Positions 40,014-45,851 of a stretch of 64,000 nucleotides of DNA are shown here, piece after piece. The notes under the pieces were generated by a model. It searched no databases. It was not told where the DNA came from and was given only the letters and a program-made list of their open reading frames with translations. Position 1 is the first letter of the stretch. The number at the start of each line of letters is the position of its first letter. Both the position numbers and the translations under genes were made by a program. Source of the DNA: Bacteroidota bacterium (lineage in GTDB: Bacteria > Bacteroidota > Ignavibacteria > Ignavibacteriales > Ignavibacteriaceae); the NCBI GenBank assembly GCA_021831685.1, contig JAKBMG010000104.1:1-64000 (forward strand). Direction: 5' to 3'.

Positions 40014-41353
40014 ATGTCTGAATACATTGCAAAATTAATGTTGGAAGTTAAGGCCAAAAACCCTAACGAACCTGAGTTTCATCAAGCAGTTCAAGAAATA
40101 GTAGAATCTCTTGAGGTAGTTTTAGAACGTCATCCCGAATACCGTTCCGCAAAAATATTGGAGCGTATGGTAGAGCCGGAAAGATTAATTATGTTCCGCG
40201 TTCCATGGATGGATGATCAAGGAGAAATTCATATCAACCGTGGATTTAGAATTGATATGAATAGCGCAATCGGTCCCTACAAAGGCGGATTAAGATTTCA
40301 CCCTTCAGTCAATTTGGGGATTCTGAAATTCTTAGCATTTGAACAAGTATTAAAAAATAGTCTTACAACCTTGCCGATGGGTGGTGGAAAAGGCGGTTCA
40401 GATTTTGACCCCAAAGGAAAAAGCGATAATGAAGTAATGCATTTCTGTCAAAGTTTTATGACCGAACTCTTCCGCCATATTGGTCCAAATACTGATGTCC
40501 CTGCCGGCGATATTGGCGTAGGAACAAGAGAAATCGGATTTTTATTCGGGCAATATAAGAGATTGAAAAATGAATTTACTGGCGTTCTTACCGGCAAGGG
40601 ATTAAATTGGGGCGGCTCTCTTATTCGCCCGGAAGCTACCGGTTTTGGAGCTGTTTATTTTGCACATGAAATGTTAAAAACTAAAGGAATGGAAATCGAA
40701 GGTAAAACTTTTGCTGTCTCCGGCTTTGGAAATGTTGCCTGGGGTGTCATTCAAAAAATTAATCAGCTCGGCGGAAGAGTCGTTACAATTTCAGGCCCGG
40801 ATGGATTCGTTTATGATAAATTCGGAGTAAAAGGAGAAAAAGTCGATTTCCTTTTACAGATGAGAGCAAGCGCTAATGATAGAGTCCAAGAATATGCAGA
40901 TAAATTTAAAGTGGAATTCTATCCAAATAAACGACCTTGGAGCGTTAAGGTTGATGTTGCAATGCCATGCGCAACTCAAAATGAAATTTTTGTTGATGAC
41001 GCAAAGGAGCTTCTTAAAATGGCTGCCAGTGTGTGTGCGAAGCTGCAAATATGCCTACAACTCTTGACGCATATAAGATCTTTAGAGATGCCGGAATTTT
41101 GTTTGCCCCCGGCAAAGCTGCTAATGCTGGCGGAGTAGCTGTCTCTGGTTTGGAAATGTCGCAAAACAGTATGCGTCTTCCCTGGCCTAAGGAAGAAGTC
41201 GATCACCGCTTAAACCAAATTATGAAACAAATACACGACACTTGTATTTCAACTGCTGAAAGATTTGGTACTCCGGGTAATTATGTGAACGGTGCAAATA
41301 TTGCAGGCTTCCTTAAAGTTGCAGATGCTATGCTTGATCAAGGTCTAGTTTAA
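40014..41353 (+). CDS. gdhA: NADP-type glutamate dehydrogenase, interrupted by a one-base frameshift
   Basis: Reversibly aminates 2-oxoglutarate to glutamate. The N-terminal part shows the substrate pocket GPYKGGLRFHPSVN and PMGGGKGGSDFDPKG with the catalytic Lys, PAGDIGVGTREIGF, and the dinucleotide fold SGFGNVAWG. The frame then shifts at an A-run (41016-41019): upstream it reads KELLKM, downstream CEAANMPTT and APGKAANAGGVAVSGLEMSQN continue in another frame. Adding one A restores 446 codons without a stop, essentially the length of E. coli GdhA. As given, translation would end at 41138 with a scrambled tail. A sequencing or assembly error is as likely as real decay. Confidence 0.9.
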
Positions 41354-41497: not shown

Positions 41498-44400
41498 TTG
41501 ACCGATAAATCAGTAATTCCAAAAATGGACAAATTTAATATCATTGACATTGAAGATATTTTTAGCACTCGTATTAAAGAGTTCCAAAAATTAATGCGTT
41601 ATAAAATTCGGGAAATCTTGCTCATCTCAAGCCTTTATGATTATTATCTCTTTGAGGAAGACGGAAGATTGTATGAACTTATCCGTCAGGATTATCAACT
41701 TCTAAACTTAAGCCAGGCTCCTGAAATTACGCACGTCACAACCGGCTCGGAAGCTCTGGAGCTAGCACTTGAAGATAATCGCTTCGACTTAATTATCACC
41801 ACTTTGCACATCGAAGATATGCATGTAATTAAGTTTGCCCGGCTTATTCGCGATGCAGGTATTAAAACTCCGATTATTCTATTGGCTTACGACAACCGCG
41901 AACGGAAAGATTTAATCGCAAATTATGATACTTCCATCTTTGATAGAATTTTTATTTGGCAAGGGGATTACCGCCTCATAATTGGTATAATTAAATATGC
42001 CGAAGATAGAATTAATGTCGAAAATGACACTTCCGTTGTCGGTGTACAGGTAATAATTTTAGTTGAAGATAATGTAAAATTTTATTCCGCTTATCTCCCC
42101 CTAATTTATACTGAAATATTTGATCAGTCACAGCGTCTACTTTCTGAAGGAGTTAATTTAACCCACAAATATTTAAGGATGCGTGCCCGTCCGAAAATTC
42201 TTCTCTGTACTACCTATGAAGAAGCCTGGGAATATTATACAAAGTATGAAGATTTTATCCTCGGAATAATTACTGATAGCAATTTCAGGCACTTTGGTGT
42301 CAGAGATCCGGAAGCGGGAATTAAGTTTGCCAAAAATGTAAAAGCCCAACACAAGGATATACCGATTCTTCTTCAATCAAGCAATGCTGAATTTGCAGAA
42401 AAGGCCAAAGAAGTCGGTGCCGATTTTCTCCTGAAAGGTTCGCCAAAGCTTCTGCATGAACTCCGTAAGTTCATTATGAATAATCTAGGTTTCGGAGATT
42501 TTATATTTCAAGCCGCCAACGGGAAAAAAGTAGGACGTGCTAATAATCTTAAAACACTCGAAGAACAATTAAAAATTGTTCCCGACGAAAGTATCTTCTA
42601 TCATGCTGAAAGAAATGATTATTCTAAATGGCTTAAAGCAAGAACAGAATTTTGGTTAGCTCATAAATTAAGACCGAGAAAAGTCTCAGACTTCAAAAAT
42701 TCATCGGAGTTAAGAAACGAATTAATTACTTCTATCCATTTGTACCAAGAAAATAGATTAAAAGGTATAATCACAGACTTTAATAAGGAATCATTCGATG
42801 ATAAAAATAGTTTCGCAAGAATCGGTGGCGGATCACTCGGCGGTAAAGCACGCGGGCTCGGTTTTATCAATACTTTAATCAACAATGACAAGATAAAAAA
42901 TAAATTTGACGGAATTGAAATCTCTGTCCCTTCAGCCGTTGTTATTGCTACTGATGTTTTCGATCAGTTCTTGGAAGATAACCGCCTTGATATTTTTGCG
43001 CTCGGCGGAATTGATGATGATGAAATTACCCGCCGCTTTCTTGATGCAAAAATCTTTCCGCTTGAAATTGTAACAAAGCTTATCGACTTTTTGAGTGCCA
43101 TTCACGAACCTCTTGCTGTGCGCTCCTCAAGTCTGCTTGAAGATTCGCAGTTTCAACCTTTTGCCGGTGTTTACCAAACTTATATGATTCCGAACAACGA
43201 TCCAGATCCTAAAATCCGACTTGAACAGTTACTTCAAAGCATCAAAGGAGTTTTTGCTTCTACCTTTTATAGAAAAGCTCAAGATTATATGAAGGCTACA
43301 ACTTACCGTCTGGAAGAAGAAAAGATGGCCGTTATCATTCAAAGGCTTGTTGGGGCGCAGCGGGATGGACGCTTCTATCCGGATTTTTCAGGAGTTGCAA
43401 AATCGTATAACTTTTACCCGATCCCTCCGCAAAAATCTACTGACGGAATCGCCATGGTTGGATTAGGGCTCGGAAAGCAGGTCGTAGACGGAGGTAATGT
43501 GGTAAGATTTTGCCCAAGATATCCTAAACATATGATGCAATTCTTTTCTGCAAAAGAAACTGTTCGGAATGCACAACAGGAGTTTTTTGCGCTCGATTTA
43601 ACCGATCATTCAAATAAAATTCTTACTGGTAAACCTGATAATTTTATTAAGAGATTTGGCTTGAAGAAAGCTGAAGAGGATAACACTTTAATAAATGTTG
43701 GCTCAACATACTCGGTAGAAAATGATGCTGTTTATGATGGCGTATCAAGAGCCGGCAAGCGAGTAGTTACTTTTGCTCCCATCTTAAAACAAAAAGTTTT
43801 TCCGCTTGCCGATATCTTAGATATACTTCTCGATCTTGGTGCTTGGGGGATGGGCGTTCCGGTGGAAATTGAATTTGCCGTTAATCTTGAAGTCCCTTTC
43901 GGCAGACCGAAAGAATTTGCTATGCTTCAAATGCGTCCCTTGGTTATTAGCCATGAGTTAGAAGAGCTTGATGTTGATTCTGCAAATACGGAAGACTTGA
44001 TCTGTCAAAGCCAACAGGTACTTGGCAACGGCGCAACAAAAGATATTCATGATATTGTCTTTGTTGATATTCAAAAGTTTGACCGTTCTAAAAGCCAGGA
44101 AACTGCTGCAGAAGTAAGTTATTTTAATTCAATATTGCTTGATCAGAAAAGACCGTATATTTTAATCGGAGTGGGGCGCTGGGGAAGTCTTGACAAATGG
44201 CTTGGTATACCTGTTACTTGGGATCAGATTGCGGGTGCCTCGGTAATTGTAGAATCCGGATTTAAAGATTTTAATGTTACACCTTCTCAAGGCTCTCACT
44301 TTTTTCAAAATATAACTTCATTTAAAACTGGATATTTTACTGTCAATGACCTTAATAAGTTGGGCTTTATTGACTGGCAGTGGCTTCTTTCTCAAAAACC

Positions 44401-44506
44401 GTTCAAAGAATTAATCTGGACGAGACATTTACGGTTTAATGAGCCGATAACTGTTAAAATTAATGGTCATAAAAGCAAGGGAGTTATTTCCAAACCTGGG
44501 AAATAA
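41498..44506 (+). CDS. Receiver-receiver-PPDK-N (PEP/pyruvate-binding) fusion protein
   Basis: 1002 residues, no signal peptide or TM. First a receiver-like domain (~38-165) in which the phospho-Asp position is Thr102 (DLIITTLHIEDM) and no acidic pocket is seen. A second receiver (~182-328) has VEDN, D260 in GIITDSNF, QSS and LLKGS, so it looks phosphorylatable. After a linker comes an ATP-grasp domain of pyruvate phosphate dikinase N-type (~435-830): GGGSLGGKARGLGF, AVRSSSLLEDS, FAGVYQTY. The phospho-His swivelling domain and the PEP-binding barrel of true PPDK/PPS are missing. The last ~170 residues are unassigned. Start is TTG with GAGAG upstream; an ATG nine codons later is possible. Activity unknown. 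Confidence 0.85.
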   Translation: MTDKSVIPKMDKFNIIDIEDIFSTRIKEFQKLMRYKIREILLISSLYDYYLFEEDGRLYELIRQDYQLLNLSQAPEITHVTTGSEALELALEDNRFDLIITTLHIEDMHVIKFARLIRDAGIKTPIILLAYDNRERKDLIANYDTSIFDRIFIWQGDYRLIIGIIKYAEDRINVENDTSVVGVQVIILVEDNVKFYSAYLPLIYTEIFDQSQRLLSEGVNLTHKYLRMRARPKILLCTTYEEAWEYYTKYEDFILGIITDSNFRHFGVRDPEAGIKFAKNVKAQHKDIPILLQSSNAEFAEKAKEVGADFLLKGSPKLLHELRKFIMNNLGFGDFIFQAANGKKVGRANNLKTLEEQLKIVPDESIFYHAERNDYSKWLKARTEFWLAHKLRPRKVSDFKNSSELRNELITSIHLYQENRLKGIITDFNKESFDDKNSFARIGGGSLGGKARGLGFINTLINNDKIKNKFDGIEISVPSAVVIATDVFDQFLEDNRLDIFALGGIDDDEITRRFLDAKIFPLEIVTKLIDFLSAIHEPLAVRSSSLLEDSQFQPFAGVYQTYMIPNNDPDPKIRLEQLLQSIKGVFASTFYRKAQDYMKATTYRLEEEKMAVIIQRLVGAQRDGRFYPDFSGVAKSYNFYPIPPQKSTDGIAMVGLGLGKQVVDGGNVVRFCPRYPKHMMQFFSAKETVRNAQQEFFALDLTDHSNKILTGKPDNFIKRFGLKKAEEDNTLINVGSTYSVENDAVYDGVSRAGKRVVTFAPILKQKVFPLADILDILLDLGAWGMGVPVEIEFAVNLEVPFGRPKEFAMLQMRPLVISHELEELDVDSANTEDLICQSQQVLGNGATKDIHDIVFVDIQKFDRSKSQETAAEVSYFNSILLDQKRPYILIGVGRWGSLDKWLGIPVTWDQIAGASVIVESGFKDFNVTPSQGSHFFQNITSFKTGYFTVNDLNKLGFIDWQWLLSQKPFKELIWTRHLRFNEPITVKINGHKSKGVISKPGK

Positions 44507-44824: not shown

Positions 44825-45445
44825 ATGAATCATCTCAAATTTGTTTCAAATAAAATTATATTATTTGTTTTTTTCTCCGGTTTAATCTCCTTTCTTTTCT
44901 TCGGCTGTGCAAAGAAATTTCCCGAACAGAAAGATATATCCGGTAATAATTATGTTTTGTTAAACCAAGATAGTGCAAAGGTAAATTTCCCCTCTGATTT
45001 TAAGGGAAAAATTCTTGTAATTACTTTTATATACACGAACTGTCCGGATATTTGTCCAATGACGACTCATAATATGCAGATGGTTCAGCAGAAGCTTGCT
45101 AAAGAAGGAATAACCGGAGTGCAATTTGCTGCCATATCGTTTGATCCAAGTCGCGATACACCCAAAGTATTAAAAGAATATGCCGAAGTAAGGGACATGG
45201 ACTTAAAAAATTTTATTTTCCTCACCGGAAATAAAAAAAATGTTTACTCTATAATTCATGAATTTAATTTCATTGCTATACCAGGCGATACAACTTTTGT
45301 CGATAAAAAATATCCGGTCTATTTTTACACTCACACGGATAAACTTTTTCTAGTTGACAAACAAGGAAGAATTAGAAACGAATACCGCGGTAGTAAGGTA
45401 AATTCTCAAAAATTAATTTCAGATATAAAATCTTTAGAGGATTAA
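44825..45445 (+). CDS. SCO1/SenC-family copper-delivery lipoprotein
   Basis: 206 residues with a lipoprotein signal (FSGLISFLFFGC, lipid on the Cys at ~28). The thioredoxin-like domain has the copper ligands C73-P-D-I-C77-P and H170 (YTHTDKLFLVD), and the FDPSRDTPKVLKEYA segment. SCO proteins help load the CuA site of cytochrome c oxidase. The PCu(A)C chaperone begins 1 bp later, the usual partner; the oxidase genes themselves are not in the window. Confidence 0.93.
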   Translation: MNHLKFVSNKIILFVFFSGLISFLFFGCAKKFPEQKDISGNNYVLLNQDSAKVNFPSDFKGKILVITFIYTNCPDICPMTTHNMQMVQQKLAKEGITGVQFAAISFDPSRDTPKVLKEYAEVRDMDLKNFIFLTGNKKNVYSIIHEFNFIAIPGDTTFVDKKYPVYFYTHTDKLFLVDKQGRIRNEYRGSKVNSQKLISDIKSLED

Positions 45446-45446
45446 A

Positions 45447-45851
45447 ATGGCTCTTGTTTTTGCATTTCTCGCATTATTAAATTTACATCTTCAAAAAGTT
45501 GATGTGAAAAATGCGTGGCTTCGCCCCGCGAACAAAGGCATGAACAGCGCACTTTATTTTGAGGTAACTAATAATTCCGGTAAACCTGAAACTTTGCTGA
45601 ATGTAAGCTCAAATATTGCCGAACTTGTGCAGCTTCACGAATCCTATATCCAAAAAGGGATGATGGGGATGCGCGAGGTTAAAGACGTTGTTATTAAACC
45701 CCATTCTACTTTTTCATTTAAAGAGGGTGGCTACCATGTTATGCTTTTATTTTTGAAAAAAAACTTAAAGCCTAATTCAACTGAAGTGTTTTTTCTCCAC
45801 TTTAAAAACTCAGGTACCGTAAAAATCAAAGCAGTTGTAAAAAAAGGATGA
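45447..45851 (+). CDS. PCu(A)C periplasmic copper chaperone
   Basis: 134 residues: a short N-terminal hydrophobic export segment (~1-14), then the DUF461/PCuAC domain. The Cu(I) ligands are in LHESYIQKGMMGMREV (His and Met) and GGYHVMLLFL (H-x-M). It receives copper and hands it on to SCO or directly to CuA. It is located immediately after the SCO gene, supporting a shared function. The signal is shorter than usual and the start could be further upstream, inside the SCO end. Confidence 0.92.
   Translation: MALVFAFLALLNLHLQKVDVKNAWLRPANKGMNSALYFEVTNNSGKPETLLNVSSNIAELVQLHESYIQKGMMGMREVKDVVIKPHSTFSFKEGGYHVMLLFLKKNLKPNSTEVFFLHFKNSGTVKIKAVVKKG

Follow-up and report, generated by a model that had tools for sequence, protein, structure and literature searches.

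A two-receiver, dikinase-like protein encoded behind glutamate dehydrogenase in Ignavibacteria, a candidate switch for ammonia assimilation

Introduction

The closest described systems to the protein reported here are pyruvate phosphate dikinase (PPDK) and phosphoenolpyruvate (PEP) synthase (PPSA), in which an ATP-grasp domain of the PPDK_N family works together with a His domain and a PEP/pyruvate barrel. Here, we describe a gene for a two-receiver, dikinase-like protein that follows a glutamate dehydrogenase (GDH) gene in a 64,000-nucleotide stretch of a genome of the class Ignavibacteria (positions 1 to 64,000 of contig JAKBMG010000104.1, assembly GCA_021831685.1; hereafter, the window). 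The protein has a PPDK_N ATP-grasp domain with the same catalytic residues as PPDK and PPSA, and its predicted fold is co-linear with theirs through the His domain. Unlike these enzymes, it has no PEP/pyruvate barrel, its His domain is undetectable by sequence, and two receivers and a DUF5752-like domain stand in front.

Two further systems use parts of the same machinery. The rifampin phosphotransferase RPH-Lm (5hv1/5fbu), which gives the best structural match to the ATP-grasp domain and also matches the C-terminal domain, is an ATP-grasp/His engine with a non-pyruvate acceptor; RPH carries its own rifampin-binding domain in cis, whereas the protein described here has none. Split systems of the HpeI or phenylphosphate synthase type resemble it in that their PPDK_N module works outside a complete dikinase (9goj, 330 residues, Z 19.4), but here the ATP-grasp domain, the His-like domain and the receivers are in one chain and the neighbour is GDH.

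In Bacteroidota, among them the gut Bacteroidaceae, GDH is one of the main gates through which ammonia is assimilated, and its reversible inactivation was reportedly studied in older Bacteroides work. In other phyla, GarA and OdhI regulate GDH, and the nucleotidyltransferases GlnE and GlnD likewise represent dedicated proteins that control nitrogen assimilation. Some relatives of the protein described here carry a nucleotidyltransferase domain, as GlnE and GlnD do, but GarA/OdhI and GlnE/GlnD are unrelated to it and lack an ATP-grasp/His engine.

Aspartate-less receivers have already been connected with PPDK outputs in print: a passage in a survey of such receivers lists pyruvate phosphate dikinases among the enzymatic outputs highly associated with them (PMC4395418). 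That passage ties the pairing to plant C4 metabolism and, unlike the present analysis, names no GDH, second receiver or C-terminal domain. The title of a 1996 article by Baggio and Morrison on B. thetaiotaomicron ties the switching of GDH activity to "trans-acting gene(s) downstream of gdhA" (cited in PMC4539542), and the gene family described here is a candidate for these gene(s). Our literature search, made by title and mostly among open-access papers, found no paper on this protein, its GDH link or its C-terminal domain. New here are the position of the gene directly behind GDH and the association of each GDH type with its own partner type.

Results and Discussion

The gene family is linked to glutamate dehydrogenase

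The neighbouring GDH is the main clue to the function of the two-receiver, dikinase-like gene, hereafter also called the partner gene. We compared 35 neighbourhoods: that in the window, those at 24 loci of close relatives (a 25th, the fragment L060, was omitted) and ten extra regions that had been picked before the GDH link was noticed. A GDH open reading frame (ORF) was present in all 35, and the partner gene lay directly behind a GDH ORF on the same strand in 38 of its 47 copies. The other nine copies comprise three at a contig edge, four that follow another partner gene and two with other neighbours; a third GDH of about 415-437 aa often follows the gdh-partner units. Because the gene usually stands directly behind a GDH gene, it is probably a switch for ammonia assimilation.

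The linkage also appeared in larger samples. Flanks of up to 1.5 kb contained GDH at 45 of 65 search loci (19/25 in the phylum search, 8/20 in Bacteroidaceae and 18/20 in the set around L059), and one weak remnant at L019 raises the phylum count to 20. The gene family is widespread in Ignavibacteria and Bacteroidaceae, being present in 53 of 61 genomes sampled from the latter family, to which a Prevotella bin belongs. GDH was found within 3 kb of 22 of these 53 Bacteroidaceae copies, five of which had two GDHs; assuming about two GDH genes in 3 Mb, we estimated that chance would account for well under 1%. All 53 genomes with the partner gene also have GDH. Thus, in the Bacteroidaceae set GDH occurs without the partner, and the partner was not seen without GDH. 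Gene linkage strongly supports a functional tie of the partner to GDH.

Six loci (L041, L043, L049, L052, L053 and L066) carry two tandem gdh-partner units, and in maximum-likelihood trees the 446-type and 453-type GDHs each keep their own partner clade at all six. In the partner tree, the clade of 446-type GDH partners (16 rows) has a support of 100/100 and that of 453-type partners (11 rows) 83/94; some branches are long and their placement is unsure. In the GDH tree, the 453-type group has a support of 85/75, and those of the 446-type do not form a single resolved clade. Distances between GDHs correlate with those between their partners with r 0.90 over 35 pairs, a value to which common descent contributes and which none of 2000 permutations reached. 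Because of a break in its reading frame, the GDH of the window was omitted from the trees. This GDH is 446 aa long in its intact relatives at L038 and L039, and blastn comparison with L038 (97.7% identical DNA) and L039 reduced the break to one single-base gap, which may be an assembly error or real.

Several observations speak against a GDH-specific role. Wider regions of 12-20 kb were retrieved for 19 of the 20 loci without a clear GDH; three gained one and 16 still had none. No GDH lies within 3 kb of 31 of the 53 Bacteroidaceae copies, so the linkage is not universal. GDH is also present in seven of the eight Bacteroidaceae genomes that lack the partner gene and, within the class to which the window belongs, in 6 genomes where the partner search gave no match. 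The matching trees, in turn, could reflect duplication of the whole gdh-partner unit rather than physical contact.

Table 1. Coordinates of the GDH gene, the partner gene and its predicted domains in the window
Feature	Position	Strand	Basis
gdhA-type GDH, in two overlapping frames (40014-41138, 41033-41353)	40014..41353	+	Pfam ELFV_dehydrog_N and ELFV_dehydrog
Two-receiver dikinase-like protein	41498..44506	+	Single open frame, 1002 aa, TTG start
Receiver 1, predicted aspartate-less; T102 at 41801-41803	41603..42010	+	Pfam Response_reg 67-149; fold match
Receiver 2, predicted canonical; D260 at 42275-42277	42044..42496	+	Fold match; conserved residues
DUF5752-like linker domain	42500..42772	+	Pfam DUF5752 347-418, E 8.5e-6
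PPDK_N ATP-grasp domain	42833..43963	+	Pfam PPDK_N, E 8e-35; K450, R542, E792, Q811 and R813 intact
Predicted phospho-His-like swivelling domain at the C terminus; H934 (44297-44299) as candidate phospho-His	43985..44503	+	Predicted fold; H934 in 102/102

Two receivers are joined to an ATP-grasp domain with intact catalytic residues

The frame has an alternative start, an ATG at codon 10 (41525), which is likelier than the TTG because relatives such as L042 start there. Pfam assigned two Response_reg stretches (family E 3.4e-9), a DUF5752 match and PPDK_N at residues 446-822, all reaching the cut-off. Because full-length relatives with 55-99% identity are common, occurring in many Ignavibacteria bins, the receiver-receiver-PPDK_N fusion is not due to chance. 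In an alignment of 32 relatives, the most conserved regions include the C-terminal part, which is named by no library and whose conserved columns are G891, GRWG, W901-L-G, W908, E919 and P-S-Q-G-[ST]-H934-F-F; within the DUF5752-like stretch, H369, S376, W378 and R382 are invariant. Among the papers covered by our literature search, none names DUF5752.

Conservation was assessed in 102 relatives of all forms, 90 of which bear receivers and 12 of which are rows classed as 'other'. These sequences were gathered by the pattern G-x-GRWG, so R894 and W895 are conserved by construction; the pattern did not include H934 or the ATP-grasp residues. K450, R542, E792, Q811 and R813 are invariant in all 102, and position 790 is E or D. 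Alignment through the genome's own PPDK places K22, E323 and R337 of PPDK at K450, E792 and R813, and R542 aligns to SVRSSA, a motif in a PEP-synthase-like protein that the genome encodes. The predicted ATP-grasp domain can be superposed on the rifampin phosphotransferase structure 5hv1 (Z 26.4, root-mean-square deviation (rmsd) 2.7, 289 aligned) and also on PPDK. Because its catalytic residues are invariant and it superposes on these structures, the domain looks like an intact engine rather than a relic, and residues and model together support this assignment well. The same genome also encodes, besides PPDK, a 589-aa PEP-utilizers protein resembling enzyme I of the phosphotransferase system, and a further protein with PPDK_N and PEP-utilizers domains, whose frame of 801 aa has a long stretch N-terminal to PPDK_N (G000:C12:1-2405, L004).

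A PEP/pyruvate barrel was sought by Pfam without a match, no sequence is left for one, and the match of the model to PPDK 1dik stops at residue 512 of the latter. Because no PEP/pyruvate or other substrate domain is present in cis, the acceptor would be reached in trans.

Both receivers were recognized by fold as well. The modelled receiver 1 matches the PorX receiver 8tef (Z 14.2, rmsd 2.3, 117 aligned), and T102 occupies its phospho-Asp column, which among the 90 receiver-bearing relatives holds T in 51, M in 36, S in 2, W in 1 and D in none; from residues and model, it is best described as an aspartate-less, or pseudo-, receiver. Receiver 2 matches the ComE receiver 4mld (Z 14.6, rmsd 2.4, 128 aligned) and keeps E190 (90/90), D191 (89/90), D260 (90/90), S/T294 (90/90) and K313 (90/90). 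Judged by these residues, it has everything expected of a canonical response regulator, namely the acidic pair, the phospho-Asp, the Ser/Thr and the Lys.

These results bear out much of an earlier note on this DNA, which had read the gene as a fusion of two receivers, the first with Thr102 instead of the phospho-Asp (a column that is never D, in a receiver fold with Z about 14) and the second with D260 and its supporting residues (conserved in nearly all 90 rows), to a PPDK_N domain without a PEP domain. The loss of ATP-binding residues that the note had considered was not found, all five being intact.

A different explanation is a metabolic one. The ATP-grasp/His module might phosphorylate a small molecule of the glutamate/ammonia pathway, in the manner of rifampin phosphotransferase or phenylphosphate synthase, with the receivers tuning the flux, in which case the gdh linkage would be that of a pathway operon. 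The closest structural relatives of the ATP-grasp domain include the small-molecule phosphotransferase 5hv1 and HpeI 9goj, the invariant GRWGS..D..LG motif near H934 could form a substrate pocket, and receiver-less short forms of the gene exist. However, Pfam shows no further domain for binding a substrate, of the sort that binds rifampin or PEP, and a shared metabolic step would not need each GDH type to have its own partner type within one locus. We consider a metabolic enzyme improbable.

The C-terminal domain is predicted to carry a phospho-histidine

The C-terminal domain was modelled alone with 44 relatives and gave a predicted local distance difference test (pLDDT) score of 92.7 and a predicted template modelling (pTM) score of 0.90. 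A structure search of this model with VIA-align returned, as its nine best rows, exclusively swivelling domains of PPDK, rifampin phosphotransferase or pyruvate kinase (Z 5.9-7.4). Two of them are the C-terminal part of pyruvate kinases (best 3t05, Z 7.4, rmsd 2.9, 107 aligned). Five come from PPDK, namely the phosphoryl carrier domain 2fm4 (Z 7.3, rmsd 3.6, 117 of 128 residues aligned), the plant enzyme (Z 7.2 and 7.1) and two more PPDKs (Z 6.7 and 6.6), and two from rifampin phosphotransferase (5fbu, residues 756-867, Z 7.1; 5fbs, Z 5.9). Many of the lower rows belong to the same broad swivelling fold. In addition, the full-length model is co-linear through the His domain with PEP synthase 2ols (422-1002 on 9-467, Z 26.2) and PPDK 1dik (438-1002 on 7-512, Z 18.8).

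H934 is invariant in all 102 relatives. In the model, the order around it is strand, short helix, strand, His, helix, strand, so that H934 stands at a helix start after a core strand. The TSH-motif region of PPDK shows the same order. On this basis, H934 is probably a phospho-carrier, and the identity of the C-terminal domain as a His carrier is moderately supported by the model.

Other results speak against a carrier domain. The first unrelated VIA-align row also has Z 5.9, and a Z of about 7 (7-8) is in the range where the tool's own guidance allows background or no clear match. Pfam gave no match of the domain to PEP-utilizers at E 1, and hhalign against PF00391-type profiles (30, 6 and 24 rows) gave probabilities of at most 1.6%, with no signal above the controls; it was run both ways, with slices of the receiver, DUF5752 and ATP-grasp domains and shuffled columns as controls. 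An hmmsearch of the PDB with alignment A2 yielded chance rows only and thus no link to PEP-utilizers. Foldseek gave no significant match, the best being 3drn (Bcp1) with E 0.038, and no carrier domain was among the 50 matches listed.

These negatives would fit a domain of the broad swivelling fold that binds a ligand or GDH, with the ATP-grasp domain phosphorylating its target directly or only sensing ATP. The absence of sequence kinship to PEP-utilizers favours this explanation, as do many non-carrier domains that match at Z 4-6 (aconitase, chaperonins, the carbamoyl phosphate synthetase small subunit, MccF and LD-carboxypeptidase). It is nevertheless rather improbable in our view, as carriers and the related pyruvate kinase domain make up all nine top structural rows, H934 is placed as in PPDK, and every form of the gene retains G-[ST]-H-F-F.

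The predicted carrier domain at the C terminus speaks against the earlier note, which had regarded the phospho-His domain as missing. The His domain that it did not expect within the C-terminal 170 residues comes close to being found by the predicted fold (Z about 7), with an invariant H934, but gives no sequence signal. A stand-alone swivelling His-domain protein, which the note had suggested as a partner, was sought in the window's genome; the three PF00391 matches all lie inside large proteins (frames of 589, 934 and 801 aa), and this partner was rejected. That part of the note in which the ATP-grasp domain serves another molecule under phospho-signal control survives as the best reading, given the canonical receiver 2 and the lack in cis of a PEP barrel or any other third catalytic domain; its premise of a missing His domain is not supported.

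A candidate source of the phospho-signal

At L066, the two gdh-partner units are separated by genes for a PAS/HisKA_3 histidine kinase and a NarL-type response regulator (L066:9322-11397), and genes of the same two clusters are located there in L049, L051 and L053. This pair is a possible source of the phospho-signal.

The same genes enter into the least probable alternative, a dikinase-type signalling kinase in which the Asp of receiver 2, or that of a separate response regulator, receives the phosphoryl group from phospho-H934 and the ATP-grasp/His module replaces a histidine kinase: transfer from phospho-His to a receiver Asp is standard phosphorelay chemistry, the chain itself includes a canonical receiver and L066 encodes a NarL-type regulator, with genes of its cluster in L049, L051 and L053, but the receiver-less forms retain all ATP-grasp and His residues (12/12 'other' rows, one of them, L060, being a contig-edge fragment) and the L066 operon also has a normal histidine kinase.

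A proposed signal-gated phosphotransfer device for GDH

We favour, tentatively and at slightly less than an even chance, the view that the protein is a signal-gated phosphotransfer device controlling the neighbouring GDH. Judging from its family, the ATP-grasp domain would bind ATP and move a phosphoryl group to H934 of the C-terminal swivelling domain, the same step that PPDK, PEP synthase and rifampin phosphotransferase perform with their own His domains. Phosphorylation of D260 in receiver 2 may allow or block this transfer, and the aspartate-less receiver 1 may act in this gating as a protein- or ligand-binding partner. The swivelling domain would then phosphorylate the cognate GDH, or make a contact with it that depends on phosphorylation, as gene linkage and matching trees suggest, and the outcome would be to set ammonia assimilation against glutamate breakdown. 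Action on GDH is what we infer from the locus; direct phosphorylation of GDH is a proposal.

A conserved, gdh-linked, apparently receiver-gated ATP-grasp/His protein is a concrete, testable candidate for GDH switching, and if the device operates as outlined, dikinase chemistry would extend from metabolism to protein regulation. A more far-reaching version, which we regard as conceivable but unlikely as a whole, is signalling by a dikinase engine: the ATP-grasp domain would charge a highly diverged swivelling phospho-His domain that reversibly phosphorylates GDH upon a two-component signal, the gene would be the trans-acting gene downstream of gdhA in Bacteroides, and GDH paralogs would have their own dedicated modifiers, some with a nucleotidyltransferase arm.

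Other forms of the gene and further neighbours

Such an arm is found in a long form of the gene (about 1060 aa), in which Pfam-type NTP_transf_2 (E 1.5e-7), a nucleotidyltransferase domain, forms the C terminus. A short form (about 580-590 aa) consists of the ATP-grasp and C-terminal domains only and has no receivers. The two forms occur in tandem with ends overlapping by a few bases (L064:6805-11723, L065:6913-11837 and L068:4626-9565), preceded in L065 and L068 by a GDH of 428 aa and in L064 by a full partner gene. Because glutamine synthetase and PII are under the control of nucleotidyltransferases in other bacteria, the NTP_transf_2 domain of the long form fits a role in nitrogen control.

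PADLOC gave no match on the locus, and identity as a defence system was dropped. Downstream of the gene, the window encodes an SCO1/SenC-type protein and a probable copper-chaperone-like protein, the latter named from sequence only (44825-45851); among the neighbourhoods seen, this pair recurs only in L038, L039 and L050.

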